Origin: Gracilibacter sp. BRH_c7a
GTDB lineage: Bacteria; Bacillota; Desulfitobacteriia; Desulfitobacteriales; Syntrophobotulaceae
Length of the DNA stretch: 43,470 nt
NCBI GenBank assembly: GCA_001516055.1
Contig: LOEZ01000028.1
Span: 1-43,470 of the forward strand
Direction of reading: 5' to 3'
Below, one piece after another: positions 2,711 to 37,123 of this stretch (position 1 is its first letter; the number at the start of each line of letters is the position of its first letter). The notes beneath the pieces are model-generated. The model did no database searches and was not told where the DNA came from. It saw only the letters and a list, made by a program, of their open reading frames with translations. Position numbers and translations under genes: made by a program.

Positions 2711-2785
2711 TTAATATCACCTCCTTTTAAATTTTTCAAGAAACATAATCTTTCCTTTTTTGCCTGTGATTCTATTGCCTATCAT

Positions 2786-3442
2786 TTATTCCATTACTTT
2801 TAAGTTTTTGCTAACAGTCAATTCAGCTTCTGTAACTTGTTGGACTTCTTCCACCGTTAAGCCTGAGGCGATCTCTTGAAGCAGCAAGCCCTCGGCGGTG
2901 ACTTTAATCACTGCCTTATTCGTAATAATCAAATTCACTTGTTGGGAGGCAGTTAATGGCAGCTTACACTTCTTAAGTATCTTGGGCTGTCCATCTTTAG
3001 TGGTATGTTCCATAGCTACAATTACTTTCTTAGCACCAACAACAAGATCCATGGCTCCACCCATGCCGGGAACCATTTTACCTGGTATCATCCAGTTGGC
3101 GAGGTTGCCTTCCTGATCAACCTGAAGAGCTCCGAGTACCGTCTTATCAACATGTCCGCCTCGAATCATGGCAAAGGAGAAAGAGCTATCAAAGAAAGCA
3201 CCACCGGGGTTAATCGTCACCGGTTTGCCTCCGGCATCCACGATATTCATATCTTCTTTTCCCGATTCAGGTCTGGAACCCAAGCCGAGAAAGCCGTTCT
3301 CTGACTGAAAAATTACTTTTATTCCTTCTGGTATATAGTTCGCTACTAAAGTGGGCATCCCGATTCCCAAATTAACAACATCGCCATCGCGGAGTTCTTT
3401 AGCCACTCTTTTTACAATTTCTATTTGATCAGCATTGGACAT
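2786..3442 (-). CDS. CoA-transferase subunit B (3-oxoacid CoA-transferase type)
   Basis: The protein has about 218 residues and belongs to the class I CoA-transferase beta subunits (ScoB/AtoA/CtfB type). The catalytic glutamate is in SENG at residues 47-50, preceded by the conserved VNLGIGMPT; the later GGAMDLV motif is also typical. In this family the glutamate forms an enzyme-bound CoA thioester during CoA transfer between an acyl-CoA and a free acid. I prefer ATG 3442 to a GTG at 3451, which would sit only two bases after its AGAGG. The frame overlaps the end of subunit A by 14 bases, the usual arrangement for translational coupling of the two subunits. The acid substrate is not determined. 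Confidence 0.92.
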
Positions 3443-4103
3443 TTTGCGCACAACCTCTCACAATACAATCTACAAATATTCCAGGCAGCATAACATCTTC
3501 TGGATCGATCCCTCCGATTCTGACATGTTCTTCTACTTCCGCAATCACATATTCGGCAGCAGTTGCCATGATGAGATTAAAGTTGCGAGTCGCTCCCCGA
3601 AAAACCAGATTTCCAAATTCGTCGGCTTTATAGGCTTTAATTAATGCTACATCGGCTTTTAGTGGAGTTTCAAGCAGGTAGGTCTGACCGTTGATTTCCA
3701 TCTTTTTTTTACCGTTTTCAATGATGGTTCCGAAACCTGTAGGAGTTAAAAACCCACCAAGTCCCGCCCCGCCCGCTCTGATCCTTTCTGCGAGAGTTCC
3801 TTGGGGATTTAATTCCACAGCAATTTCTCCAGAGTTGAGTTTTCTGCCCGTCTCTGGGTTAGTTCCTATATGAGACGCAATCAGGCGCGAAATCATTCCC
3901 CTTTTAACTAATTTACCAACTCCTACCCCTTCAAAATCCGTATCATTGCTAATCACGGTAAGGTTTCTGACATTAGTTTCTGCCAACTTATCAAGAACGT
4001 ACTTAGGGCTTCCGCATCCCATAAACCCACCAATCATGACAACACTTCCGCTGCTAATACACTTTATTGCTTCCGGTGCACTTTTTAGCTTATCGTTACT
4101 CAT
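3429..4103 (-). CDS. CoA-transferase subunit A (3-oxoacid CoA-transferase type)
   Basis: The 224-residue protein matches the alpha subunit of class I CoA-transferases (ScoA/AtoD/CtfA). Visible features are the N-terminal [11 protein letters not shown] loop (family GGFG/CG region) and the glycine-rich stretch near residue 115 ([13 protein letters not shown]). It forms a heteromer with the B subunit encoded immediately downstream and transfers CoA to an organic acid, so that the acid can enter beta-oxidation-like steps. It is the first gene of the operon: ATG 4103 is about 50 bases downstream of the start site predicted from the sigma-54 promoter at 4166-4181. This position explains the operon's regulation by the adjacent activator. 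Confidence 0.92.
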
Positions 4104-5885: not shown

Positions 5886-6260
5886 CTAGCTATCTTCCAT
5901 GATTACGATATATTTTACTCCCTCAATACTGGTGGCCTTTAATAACTCACAGTGACGCAGAACAGTAAATTCTCTACTCATTTGGCTCTCTGATAGGTGG
6001 AATTGTTGCATTAGAGCGTCTAGGGTGACTTGGCCATTCACCATTAAATATTCATATATATTTTTTTGCAATTCGGTTAACCCATCAGTACCTTCTTGTC
6101 CCGCCATTTTTCTTGTCATTTTAGCACTATGAACAGCTACAACATCACAGGTTTTAGGGAGGCTTACAGCATCAACGTAACAATCTTCGCATAAAATCTG
6201 CCCTCTGTAATTCATTTCCTCGCCCATAGGAATTTCTTCTCGACATTTTATACAAATCAT
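5886..6260 (-). CDS. Small zinc-ribbon plus winged-helix protein
   Basis: The 124-residue protein has an N-terminal zinc-binding module with CIKC at residues 3-6 and CEDC at 24-27, a LIM- or ribbon-like spacing. After a linker comes a C-terminal winged-helix region (about 62-124) in which QVTLDALMQQFHLSESQMSR reads as a helix-turn-helix. ATG 6260 follows GGGAGGT. It lies 64 bases upstream of the sigma-54 activator's ATG and is co-directional, so the two are probably co-transcribed. A DNA- or protein-binding role modulating the activator or its target operon is plausible but inferred. I do not recognise a named family. Confidence 0.75.
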   Translation of the reverse strand: MICIKCREEIPMGEEMNYRGQILCEDCYVDAVSLPKTCDVVAVHSAKMTRKMAGQEGTDGLTELQKNIYEYLMVNGQVTLDALMQQFHLSESQMSREFTVLRHCELLKATSIEGVKYIVIMEDS

Positions 6261-6392
6261 TTTGTTTACCTCCCTTTTATCACAATTGTTTTAATCCATT
6301 ATTTAACAGTATTGTAAACACATTATCTGATTAAAACAAGAACAATCTTTTAATTTCCAAATTCTTAATTATAAACTTTTTGCATAGCCACA

Positions 6393-34102: not shown

Positions 34103-34131
34103 TTGACCTTTGCCTGTTTTAATAGTAGAAT
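34103..34131 (+). promoter_or_regulatory. Sigma-A promoter of the T-box transcript
   Basis: TTGACC, exactly 17 bases, TAGAAT. The predicted start near 34138 leads directly into the T-box leader. Confidence 0.75.
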
Positions 34132-34138
34132 ACGTCCA

Positions 34139-34466
34139 TAAATTAAAAATCTACGGCTATGATGAGAAGTAGTAAATCCTTGTAAGCTGTTCTAGCGAGT
34201 CAGAGATGGTGAAAGTCTGATACATATTCTTGGATTGAATGGATCTCAGAGCTGCTAGCTGAACTCGGACATATTCCGATAGTAGGTGATGCCGGGGAGT
34301 TTCCCGTTATAGAGACAGGATATCGAGAAATTAAGGTTTCTCCGTATCTGGAAGAGATGCTTTTAGAATATCTCAGATAAATATCTCAAATATACCAATT
34401 ATTCTAAGAGCAACAAAGGTGGCACCGCGGATAATCCTCCGTCCTTTCAGGGACGGGGGTTTTTTA
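34139..34466 (+). promoter_or_regulatory. T-box leader, predicted tryptophan-specific
   Basis: The signature T-box AAGGTGGCACCGCGG is at 34416-34430. It is followed by a terminator stem CCTCCGTCC (34436-34444) and GGACGGGGG (34451-34459) and a T-run. Stem I contains AGTAGTAAA early and the specifier region GAATGGATCTCAGAGC, where TGG (34240-34242) fits tryptophan in the usual place. Uncharged tRNA-Trp should stabilise the antiterminator and let transcription reach the downstream TrpX-type gene, which agrees with the specifier. The specifier choice rests on alignment by eye. Confidence 0.93.
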
Positions 34467-34491
34467 TATTGTTTTATAGGAGGGGATATTG

Positions 34492-34605
34492 ATGGATAAC
34501 CCAGATTGGTGGCCTTGGCCAAAGACATCATTTAGATATAAAACCCAAACAACTTTACTTCTGAATAGAGCAGGAATTAAATCCATTCCAGTTAAGCTGA
34601 TTTAG
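34492..34605 (+). CDS. Short tryptophan-rich reading frame between T-box and trpX (leader peptide candidate)
   Basis: A 37-codon frame begins with ATG 34492, preceded by AGGAGGGG at seven bases. Its start is M-D-N-P-D-W-W-P-W-P, with three Trp codons in four positions, and it ends in I-P-V-K-L-I before TAG 34603. The stop codon sits in a hairpin loop AGCTGA-TTTAG-TCAGCT (34595-34611), close before the ribosome site of the TrpX-type gene at 34634. The Trp run at codons 6-9 would slow ribosomes when charged tRNA-Trp is scarce. It may be a regulatory leader peptide or a small functional protein. I recognise no family. Confidence 0.6.
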   Translation: MDNPDWWPWPKTSFRYKTQTTLLLNRAGIKSIPVKLI

Positions 34606-34633
34606 TCAGCTATTATGAGAGGAGATTATAAAA

Positions 34634-35614
34634 ATGAAAAAGTTTTTACTCACAACACTCGTTATTCTGTTATCTGCTAGCCTGATTCTTACAGGCTGCT
34701 CTTCTGCCCCCGCATCCAGTGATAAAATCTTGAAGGTTGGCCTTATCCAACTCGTTGAACATCCTTCTCTGGATTATGTGAGAGAAGGCATGTTGGAAGC
34801 TATTAAAGACGCTGGTTTTGAACAAGGTGTCAATATAGATATTGATTATCAGAATGCTCAAGCTGACCAGTCCACCATGAATACCATCGCCAACAAATTT
34901 GTGGGTGATCAAGTAGATCTGATAATTTCTATAACTACTCCATCTACCCAAGTAGTTGCGGCTAATACTACAGATATCCCCATAGTCTTTGGCGCGGTCA
35001 CTGATCCGATTGCCGCTAAATTAGTAAAAAGTTTAGAAAAACCAGATACCAATGTGACCGGTGTAAGTGACCTTAATCCATTTGAAGCCCAGTTTGAAAT
35101 GATGCAGAAGGTAGTTCCCGACGCTAAAAAAATAGGGATAGTTTTCAACACGAGTGAGGTCAACTCCCAGGTTCAAGTGGATAAAGCTAAAGAATTCGGG
35201 GACAAACTTGGCTACGAAATTATTACCGCCCCAATAGTTAATAGCAGTGAAGTTCTTCAAGCGGCCCAGATGCTGGCAGGTAAGGAAATAGATGCTTTTT
35301 ATGTGATTACCGATAACACAGTAGCTCAATCTATCAATTCTTTATCCCAAGTCGCTATCGAAAATAATATCCCCACCATAGTAGCTGAAGATAGCCAAGT
35401 TGAAGGCGGCTGCCTTATAAGTATCGGAATCGATTATAAGATTCATGGTTACCAAGCAGGAGAGATGGCTGTACGTGTTCTAAAAGGAGCAAATCCCGCA
35501 GAGATGCCAATCGAATATCAGAAAGATCTCAAAGTGGTGATCAACAGTGAAACTCAAAAAGCTTTAGGTATAGAAATCCCTGAGGAGTATACGAAAGAGG
35601 CTACTTTCATTTAA
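34634..35614 (+). CDS. ABC transporter substrate-binding lipoprotein, TrpX-like
   Basis: The 326-residue protein has a lipoprotein signal peptide, with the lipobox LTGC at about residues 19-22. The mature part matches the ABC substrate-binding family PF04392 (PIVFGAVTDPIAAKLV, ADVGIVFNTSE-like region KKIGIVFNTSEVNSQ, AFYVITDNTVAQS). With a Trp-type T-box upstream, it is the TrpX-like binding protein for tryptophan or a related compound. ATG 34634 has GGAG nine bases upstream. Unlike the usual trpXYZ order, no permease or ATPase gene follows; a terminator comes at 35682. Confidence 0.9.
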   Translation: MKKFLLTTLVILLSASLILTGCSSAPASSDKILKVGLIQLVEHPSLDYVREGMLEAIKDAGFEQGVNIDIDYQNAQADQSTMNTIANKFVGDQVDLIISITTPSTQVVAANTTDIPIVFGAVTDPIAAKLVKSLEKPDTNVTGVSDLNPFEAQFEMMQKVVPDAKKIGIVFNTSEVNSQVQVDKAKEFGDKLGYEIITAPIVNSSEVLQAAQMLAGKEIDAFYVITDNTVAQSINSLSQVAIENNIPTIVAEDSQVEGGCLISIGIDYKIHGYQAGEMAVRVLKGANPAEMPIEYQKDLKVVINSETQKALGIEIPEEYTKEATFI

Positions 35615-35754: not shown

Positions 35755-36948
35755 CTATGGGGTTTTTCTAGTCGTTAGGGGGCGAATAAATTCTTTGAGA
35801 TCAGACTTAAGGATACTATCTATCTCGCTCCAGTAATTTGGTTTAGTCTCAGCAAAGATAAACCCAAAAACAGGATGTTTCTGATAGTCTATTCTTCTTA
35901 TTTCCAGAGGATTGCTGAAATAAGCGGCAAGCAATTCATAGTCTATTTCTATCTCCCTAACATCTACATCTTTGGGAATATCGGCTATAACGATACTGTA
36001 AATTTCATCTTTTTTATCTTTTAAAATTTTATCCCAGTCTGGTTCTTTTTGGGAGAAGAAGTATTCATAAACATTAATTCCGTAGGCATAGTAAGCCATA
36101 TCAGTGGTACACCATCCGGCAAATCTCATAGGATTTACTTCTATAGGAATTACTTTGTCTTTCGAGTCTACTTTTACTTCAATATGAACAGGAAAATTTT
36201 TCAAAGATATCAAGTTCCCCATCTTAGATAAGAAATCCAAGAAAACCGTTTGATATCTTTCCATAATTTCCTTTGATGTAATATAAATACGATCACTAAC
36301 ATCTGTATCTGAGCTAAATAAATGCTTTAGGATATTTAGAATTATAGGCTTGCCCTCATTATTATAGTAGGCATCAATAGCAAATTCTTGTCCGTCTATA
36401 TATTCCTCAATAATAAATTTATCGGGATTGACTACCTCTAGTGGAAAATTATCATTAAATTGTTTAACCTCTTGCTTTAATTCATCGAGGGCTTTATTCC
36501 ATTCCTCAGTGTTATTGAGCTTATATACACCCATACTGAAAAAACCTATAGAAGGTTTAAGGATGAAAGGCATTTTCAATTCAACAATATTAACTCTGTC
36601 TAATTCTTCAAACTTAATTTCTTTATAAAAGAAATCCGGGTAAATTTCTTTTAGTAATTCTCTGAATCTAACTTTATCTTTAAAAACTTTAATTTTCTCG
36701 GGTAAATCCAGAAAGTTTAAATTCTCCATAATCCAATCAATACTATTTTCCGAAGTACAATAAATAAGATTATTATTGTCTTTGGCCGACATCATAATTG
36801 ATGATGGCTTTTCCACAAATGATATTTTATCGGATAGTTGAAGCTCCTTAGTAAATTCATTCTTCAGGACATTTACGTTCATTTCTTCAAGAGTTTTTTG
36901 AAGGAAACTCGAAACATAAGGTTTATCTAAAATTATCATTTTTAGCAT
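35755..36948 (-). CDS. ATP-grasp domain protein
   Basis: The protein has about 397 residues. The central part is an ATP-grasp fold: MPFILKPSIGFFSMGVYKL with the ATP-binding lysine, IIEEYIDGQEFAIDAYY, and HIEVKVDS followed by IPIEVNPMRFAGWC with the metal-binding glutamate and asparagine. ATP-grasp enzymes join a carboxylate to an amine or similar partner via an acyl phosphate. The substrate is unknown. I start it at ATG 36948, with GGAG eight bases upstream; the frame's first 38 codons beyond it lack a ribosome site. It is divergent from the bactofilin gene and apparently monocistronic. Confidence 0.85.
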   Translation of the reverse strand: MLKMIILDKPYVSSFLQKTLEEMNVNVLKNEFTKELQLSDKISFVEKPSSIMMSAKDNNNLIYCTSENSIDWIMENLNFLDLPEKIKVFKDKVRFRELLKEIYPDFFYKEIKFEELDRVNIVELKMPFILKPSIGFFSMGVYKLNNTEEWNKALDELKQEVKQFNDNFPLEVVNPDKFIIEEYIDGQEFAIDAYYNNEGKPIILNILKHLFSSDTDVSDRIYITSKEIMERYQTVFLDFLSKMGNLISLKNFPVHIEVKVDSKDKVIPIEVNPMRFAGWCTTDMAYYAYGINVYEYFFSQKEPDWDKILKDKKDEIYSIVIADIPKDVDVREIEIDYELLAAYFSNPLEIRRIDYQKHPVFGFIFAETKPNYWSEIDSILKSDLKEFIRPLTTRKTP

Positions 36949-37123
36949 TATTTCATCTCCATATCTTGATATAAAATTATTAAAAGTTATCAAAATCATC
37001 AAAAACAGTTCTTTGGTCCTATTGTAAAGGGACCAACGTAATATATAAAAGCTTATCATCATGTATTATCATGTTGATAAAGATATAATTTTACCTTATT
37101 TTAACATTAAGGGAAGTGATTGT

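Follow-up and report, generated by a model that had tools for sequence, protein, structure and literature searches.

A short tryptophan-codon leader frame lies between a Trp-type T-box and a trpX-like gene and may provide a second check on the charging of tRNA-Trp

The window analyzed here is the whole 43,470-nucleotide stretch of Gracilibacter sp. BRH_c7a contig LOEZ01000028.1. In the window, a T-box leader, a short frame with Trp codons near its start, and a trpX-like gene follow one another on the plus strand, and the locus contains the following features.

34103-34131, plus strand: putative promoter-like site TTGACC-17-TAGAAT (consensus scan, 10/12 matches)
34150-34449, plus strand: T-box leader of the Trp type, RF00230 (Rfam; specifier UGG and acceptor-pairing UGGC from the sequence)
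34436-34465, plus strand: T-box terminator, hairpin at 34436-34459 and T run (terminator scan)
34478-34485, plus strand: Shine-Dalgarno of the leader frame, AGGAGGGG (sequence; a G-rich site is kept at 4/4 orthologous loci)
34492-34605, plus strand: leader frame of 37 codons, ATG 34492-34494, TAG 34603-34605 (sequence)
34595-34611, plus strand: hairpin AGCTGA-TTTAG-TCAGCT around the leader stop codon (sequence, MFE fold)
34617-34624, plus strand: Shine-Dalgarno of the trpX-like gene, GAGAGGAG (sequence)
34634-35614, plus strand: trpX-like ABC transporter substrate-binding protein, 326 aa (PF04392, NF041285)

A gene for an ATP-grasp protein (PF13535, 219 bits) lies at 35755-37062 on the minus strand, convergent to the trpX-like gene, and a coding stretch resembling it is visible 3' of trpX in G001, a genome from the same genus.

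With the RF00230 covariance model, the element upstream of the leader frame scored 106 bits, above the cut-off of 93. Its UGG specifier, in the context GAAUGGA, and its UGGC acceptor-pairing motif agree with the original prediction that a tryptophan T-box precedes the frame. PMC9382623 describes a Trp T-box in front of trpX in Streptococcus suis (trpX/trpXYZ) whose specifier is likewise UGG and whose acceptor motif is likewise UGGC; the two systems differ in that a keyword check found no mention of a leader frame there and in that the window trpX stands alone.

The predicted leader peptide begins MDNPDWWPWPKTSF (full frame, MDNPDWWPWPKTSFRYKTQTTLLLNRAGIKSIPVKLI), and its codons 6, 7, 8, and 9 read W W P W, with Trp codons at 34507, 34510, and 34516. 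The GGAGG core of the leader Shine-Dalgarno ends 8 nt 5' of the ATG. The leader stop lies in the loop of a hairpin (34595-34611), 11 nt before the trpX Shine-Dalgarno and 28 nt before the trpX start. The earlier description of a 37-codon frame with a strong ribosome site and W-W-P-W within its first nine codons was correct in all its coordinates and sequence statements.

The protein encoded downstream matches PF04392 (ABC_sub_bind, 286.8 bits), and its sole NCBIfam match, NF041285 TrpX, scored 309.9 bits, under the cut-off of 390; we therefore call the gene trpX-like, and its Trp specificity rests on the T-box. The protein contains no Trp residues. Of the four TrpX orthologues considered below, this one included, three lack Trp and the fourth has one residue. 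We rejected a Trp-free TrpX as an adaptation linked to the leader, since Trp is likewise absent from the 300 residues read in relatives for which neither a T-box nor a leader is recognised. Genes resembling trpYZ sit beside a second trpX elsewhere in the genome: at C55:75204-76142, a second TrpX-like protein (55% identical) is followed by permease-like and ATPase-like genes, with no recognised T-box. The T-box trpX of the window may supply one transporter with an additional, regulated binding protein.

When 41 genomes were searched with the leader peptide, the matches were weak, and two of them lay between a T-box and a trpX-like gene: one in G001 and one in a genome from another genus of the same family (G006). 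A TrpX search covering 74 genomes from the order yielded four orthologues with a T-box in front, in the window, G001, G012, and G006, whose proteins are 76-100% identical to that of the window. The T-boxes of G006 and G012 were confirmed by Rfam; that of G001 aligns with the other three but has no Rfam match over the cut-off. In the four-locus alignment, the specifier region reads GAAUGGAUCUC and the UGGC-bearing segment GGUGGCACCGCG, with GGUGGCAACGCG in G001.

A leader is present at all four orthologous loci: MDNPDWWPW... (37 codons), MDNPDWWPWS and a stop (10 codons), MDNSDWWFWPTS and a stop (12 codons), and MDNPGWWLRPDIL... (26 codons; in full, MDNPGWWLRPDILINNASDNMKNLMK and a stop). The T-box itself is conserved, and the spacer behind it cannot be aligned among the four loci save for one island, in which the G-rich ribosome site is followed by ATGGATAAC yCn Gry TGGTGG yyT yGG yCA. 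The Trp pair at codons 6 and 7 is invariant at the four loci, and the third Trp is usual, being replaced by Arg in G012. Past codon 10, similarity is gone until the trpX ribosome site. The conserved unit is thus the ribosome site plus the first ten or so codons (34492-34521 in the window for codons 1-10).

These data place conservation where the original prediction had looked for it, in the T-box-to-trpX spacer: the Shine-Dalgarno, ATG, and MDN..WW are kept at 4/4 loci, which represent three genera of a single family. They do not extend it to the whole frame, since relatives keep neither codons 11-37, nor the position of the stop, nor its placement in a hairpin. The 37-codon length is peculiar to this genome, and the tail to codon 37 is probably accidental. 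The leader stop is 11 nt from the trpX Shine-Dalgarno in the window, 57 nt in G012, 45 nt in G001, and 48 nt in G006, and it lies at least 60 nt from the trpX start at the three non-window loci. A hairpin like that around the window's stop was found among the relatives only in G001, the closest, where it falls outside the leader frame. Because the leader stop moves among relatives, its position in a hairpin is peculiar to the window's genome. We therefore rejected the stop-codon hairpin as a shared working part, the relatives stopping at codon 10, 12, or 26; the arrangement that had been described is present in the window, but the working role assigned to it did not hold. Among codons 1-10, the substituted columns comprise four first, two second, and two third codon positions; this pattern has no third-position bias and gives no sign of coding constraint.

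Chance expectation was estimated from 20,000 dinucleotide-preserving shuffles of each spacer, scored for a Shine-Dalgarno-preceded frame with WW in its first 11 codons. Such a leader arose at frequencies of 7.5e-4 (window), 2.0e-3, 3.0e-3, and 4e-4 across the four spacers, and one with a third W at 5e-5 in the window (5e-5 to 2.5e-4 over the four loci), frequencies that are not independent because the loci share descent. The observation is better than chance.

A loose pattern (T-box core, T run, and TGGTGG at the right distance) matched 17 of the 348 genomes in a phylum sample. Among these 17, TGGTGG lay inside a short Shine-Dalgarno-preceded frame only in the window, and in two others it fell in long open reading frames (278 and 446 aa), so the scan of this sample found no such short frame outside the window. 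In a collection-wide pattern scan, most matches were chance ones, and credible cases were counted among the matches listed; these held at least two besides G006. One (L135, Clostridiales MAG SIG367, minus strand, T-box at 6032-6265 and 200 bases beyond it) has a Trp T-box, a TTG-started frame MQDGWWKNKITYNMTMKI ending in a stop, and a trpX-like gene with a permease-like frame behind it; its leader stop is 6 nt from the trpX Shine-Dalgarno. The other (L069, a Bacillota MAG, 3306-3711) has a Trp T-box, a TTG-started frame MQNPATFFRWWANIQSENAYH ending in a stop, and a Shine-Dalgarno at the contig end, the next gene being missing. Both were picked for WW and tell nothing of frequency. Two further candidates (L098 and L138) were discarded, as their T-boxes precede serS-like genes and their WW is due to chance. 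L069 also carries another T-box (2785-3083) on the opposite strand.

Strict patterns, applied to 390 other genomes from the class to which L135 belongs, gave no further match, and none of 11 unselected T-box/trpX loci from its class and family has two Trp codons in a leader. These 11 take in a relative in its family (L187), which has the T-box and trpX with no such leader. Because the frame is missing from 11/11 unselected loci elsewhere, we regard the design, as judged from the genomes sampled, as a trait of the window's family lineage with at best scattered parallels. The T-box-trpX spacers of two other loci (L219 and L220), from genomes that may be close relatives, contain short frames that resemble each other, MSLADGWR(F/S)L..., each having a single Trp codon.

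In the T-box mechanism, uncharged cognate tRNA lets RNA polymerase pass the terminator. The presence of a short Trp-rich frame between such an element and the trpX-like gene suggests that this gene is probably checked twice for Trp shortage. In the first step, the UGG-specific T-box would allow read-through of the terminator when tRNA-Trp is uncharged. In the second, a ribosome would load on the escaped transcripts at the strong site behind the terminator and meet Trp codons 6, 7, and usually 9, so that the functional unit would be the Shine-Dalgarno and about 10 codons. With plentiful Trp-tRNA, the ribosome would complete the short frame and trpX initiation would be held low; in the window, it would terminate 11 nt short of the trpX Shine-Dalgarno. 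With scarce Trp-tRNA, the ribosome would halt at the Trp codons, leaving the trpX ribosome site free and the Trp-free trpX message translatable.

This logic has a precedent in the Bacillus subtilis at (rtpA/yczA) operon, where, according to PMC2311275, a Trp T-box is followed by RtpLP, a leader with three Trp codons whose full translation prevents translation of rtpA. PMC4027176 and PMC11255114 likewise describe induction of AT by uncharged tRNA-Trp at both transcription and translation. In outline, the operon has in the same order what the window has: a Trp T-box, a short Shine-Dalgarno-preceded frame with adjacent Trp codons, and the controlled gene. The systems differ in their target, which in the window is a Trp transporter binding protein (ABC_sub_bind/TrpX-like) and not anti-TRAP, and the window leader, compared here without the RtpLP sequence, has no evident relation to RtpLP. 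Stop-to-Shine-Dalgarno distance is a further difference, as a stop near the downstream site is not found across the orthologues here (57 nt for G012, 45 nt for G001, and 48 nt for G006). The block of rtpA reportedly depends on a leader stop close to the rtpA Shine-Dalgarno (Chen and Yanofsky, 2004). In E. coli trpL, a short leader with adjacent Trp codons senses Trp-tRNA. The window differs from that attenuator in that its sole terminator-like site (34436-34459) is 5' of the frame; with no terminator 3' of the frame or overlapping it, stalling cannot set transcription termination there.

How a stalled ribosome would act on trpX is constrained by the relatives. Gaps of 45-57 nt between stop and Shine-Dalgarno in three of the four orthologues mean that a block by the terminating ribosome is not the shared mechanism there; a stop near the Shine-Dalgarno makes that geometry possible in the window (11 nt) and in L135 (6 nt). 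When partition-function folding was performed with ribosome footprints at the Trp codons, there was no consistent opening of the trpX site at the four loci: with footprints, values for the trpX Shine-Dalgarno being unpaired were 0.33 to 0.34 in the window and 0.33 to 0.75 in G001, and footprints of a stall at WW brought no gain in its accessibility in G006 and little in G012. We rejected on this inconsistency a conserved role of the leader in sequestering the trpX Shine-Dalgarno.

Several observations argue for tandem sensing: a Trp-type T-box on the 5' side, a trpX-like gene on the 3' side, a WW leader at 4/4 loci in an otherwise diverged spacer, the rarity of such leaders in shuffles and in the phylum, the independent-looking arrangement in L135, the Trp-free target, and the B. 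subtilis precedent. Against it we count the long gaps between stop and Shine-Dalgarno at three loci, the inconsistent folding result, the missing third-position bias, the Arg codon in G012, and the absence of the frame from the 11 unselected loci. We give a probability of about 0.5 to a tandem transcriptional and translational sensor of uncharged tRNA-Trp that would follow the rtpLP/rtpA logic with another target and a variable geometry. The two successive Trp sensors originally proposed thus stand as the likeliest reading, given the island conserved at 4/4 loci and the rtpLP/rtpA precedent, but without a role for the stop in the hairpin.

The constant parts of the locus, a strong ribosome site and Trp codons near the terminator, fit a 5' roadblock too, which makes message protection the main rival, though an unlikely one. 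A ribosome bound at the strong leader Shine-Dalgarno and held at the Trp codons in starvation would block 5' exonuclease and raise trpX output, acting as a Trp-controlled roadblock that stabilises the T-box-released message with no fixed relation to the trpX ribosome site. This would accommodate a Shine-Dalgarno and Trp codons that follow the terminator closely at 4/4 loci, together with a distance to trpX that ranges from 78 to 138 nt, but the distance from terminator to leader ATG varies as well (17, 26, 26, and 55 nt). Stalled ribosomes and strong Shine-Dalgarnos stabilise downstream mRNA in B. subtilis, where tRNA-antitermination leaders such as that of thrS are cut just 5' of the terminator (PMC3997798). 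The Bacillus 5' stabilisers and STAB-SD elements (ermC, ermA, and cryIIIA; PMC3997798) share with the present locus a strong Shine-Dalgarno and a possible stalled ribosome near the 5' part, and they differ in that the signal proposed here is Trp-tRNA, not an antibiotic. If the roadblock reading were true, a single tRNA state would control first whether the mRNA is made and then how long it lasts.

We consider it improbable that the short leader is translated without sensing Trp, feeding trpX by termination-reinitiation or keeping the region unstructured. Reinitiation-boosting leader frames have been proposed (PMC4833913), and the 28 nt between stop and trpX start in the window would suit one, but the distances of at least 60 nt at the other three loci would not, and an invariant WW behind a Trp T-box would be left unexplained. 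Somewhat less probable again is coincidence or recent descent, a chance frame kept by the kinship of the genomes; the leader occurs in four related genomes only and is absent from the 11 unselected loci elsewhere, yet the Shine-Dalgarno and codons 1-10 are kept in a spacer that is otherwise unalignable, and the shuffle frequencies are 5e-5 to 3e-3. The least probable reading makes the frame a by-product of an RNA element, a hairpin of codons 7-10 (UGGC/GCCA with CUUG, UUUG, or UUCG loops) by the G-rich site. The pairing is possible in 4/4 sequences, with two one-sided wobble-preserving changes, and the spread of substitutions over codon positions would be compatible with it. This fold has only four pairs, however, at about -2 to -5 kcal/mol, with no compensatory change and no excess over a shuffled control in the four sequences; ATGGATAAC is invariant though it lies outside the hairpin, at Shine-Dalgarno distance; and the link to a Trp T-box is left unexplained. 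Because TGG and CCA codons are reverse complements, the pairing of codons 7-10 in part comes free.

The original prediction was right in outline and overweighted the stop-codon hairpin; the Trp-sensing function is a predicted one. To our knowledge, anti-TRAP in Bacillus is the only case in which a double check on uncharged tRNA-Trp has been established. If tandem sensing is true here, it would show that genes under T-box control are able to acquire a further check at the level of translation, in this instance as a lineage-specific case on a transporter gene. A different leader with a free distance from its stop to the gene would also let block, refolding, and message protection be told apart. 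Spacers between T-boxes and their genes are worth inspection, as the T-box covariance model stops short of them.

Viewed by eye, the other T-box spacers in the window's own genome (13 loci, two incomplete) contain no leader rich in the cognate residue, and T-boxes before trpE-like and trpB-like genes, named by eye from their N-termini, have no such frame; we rejected a leader of the Trp type as a general habit of this genome's T-boxes on the basis of those spacers. Two T-box matches of identical score in this genome (L028 and L029, on C16 and C49) precede the same proC-like frame and represent a genome or assembly duplicate.
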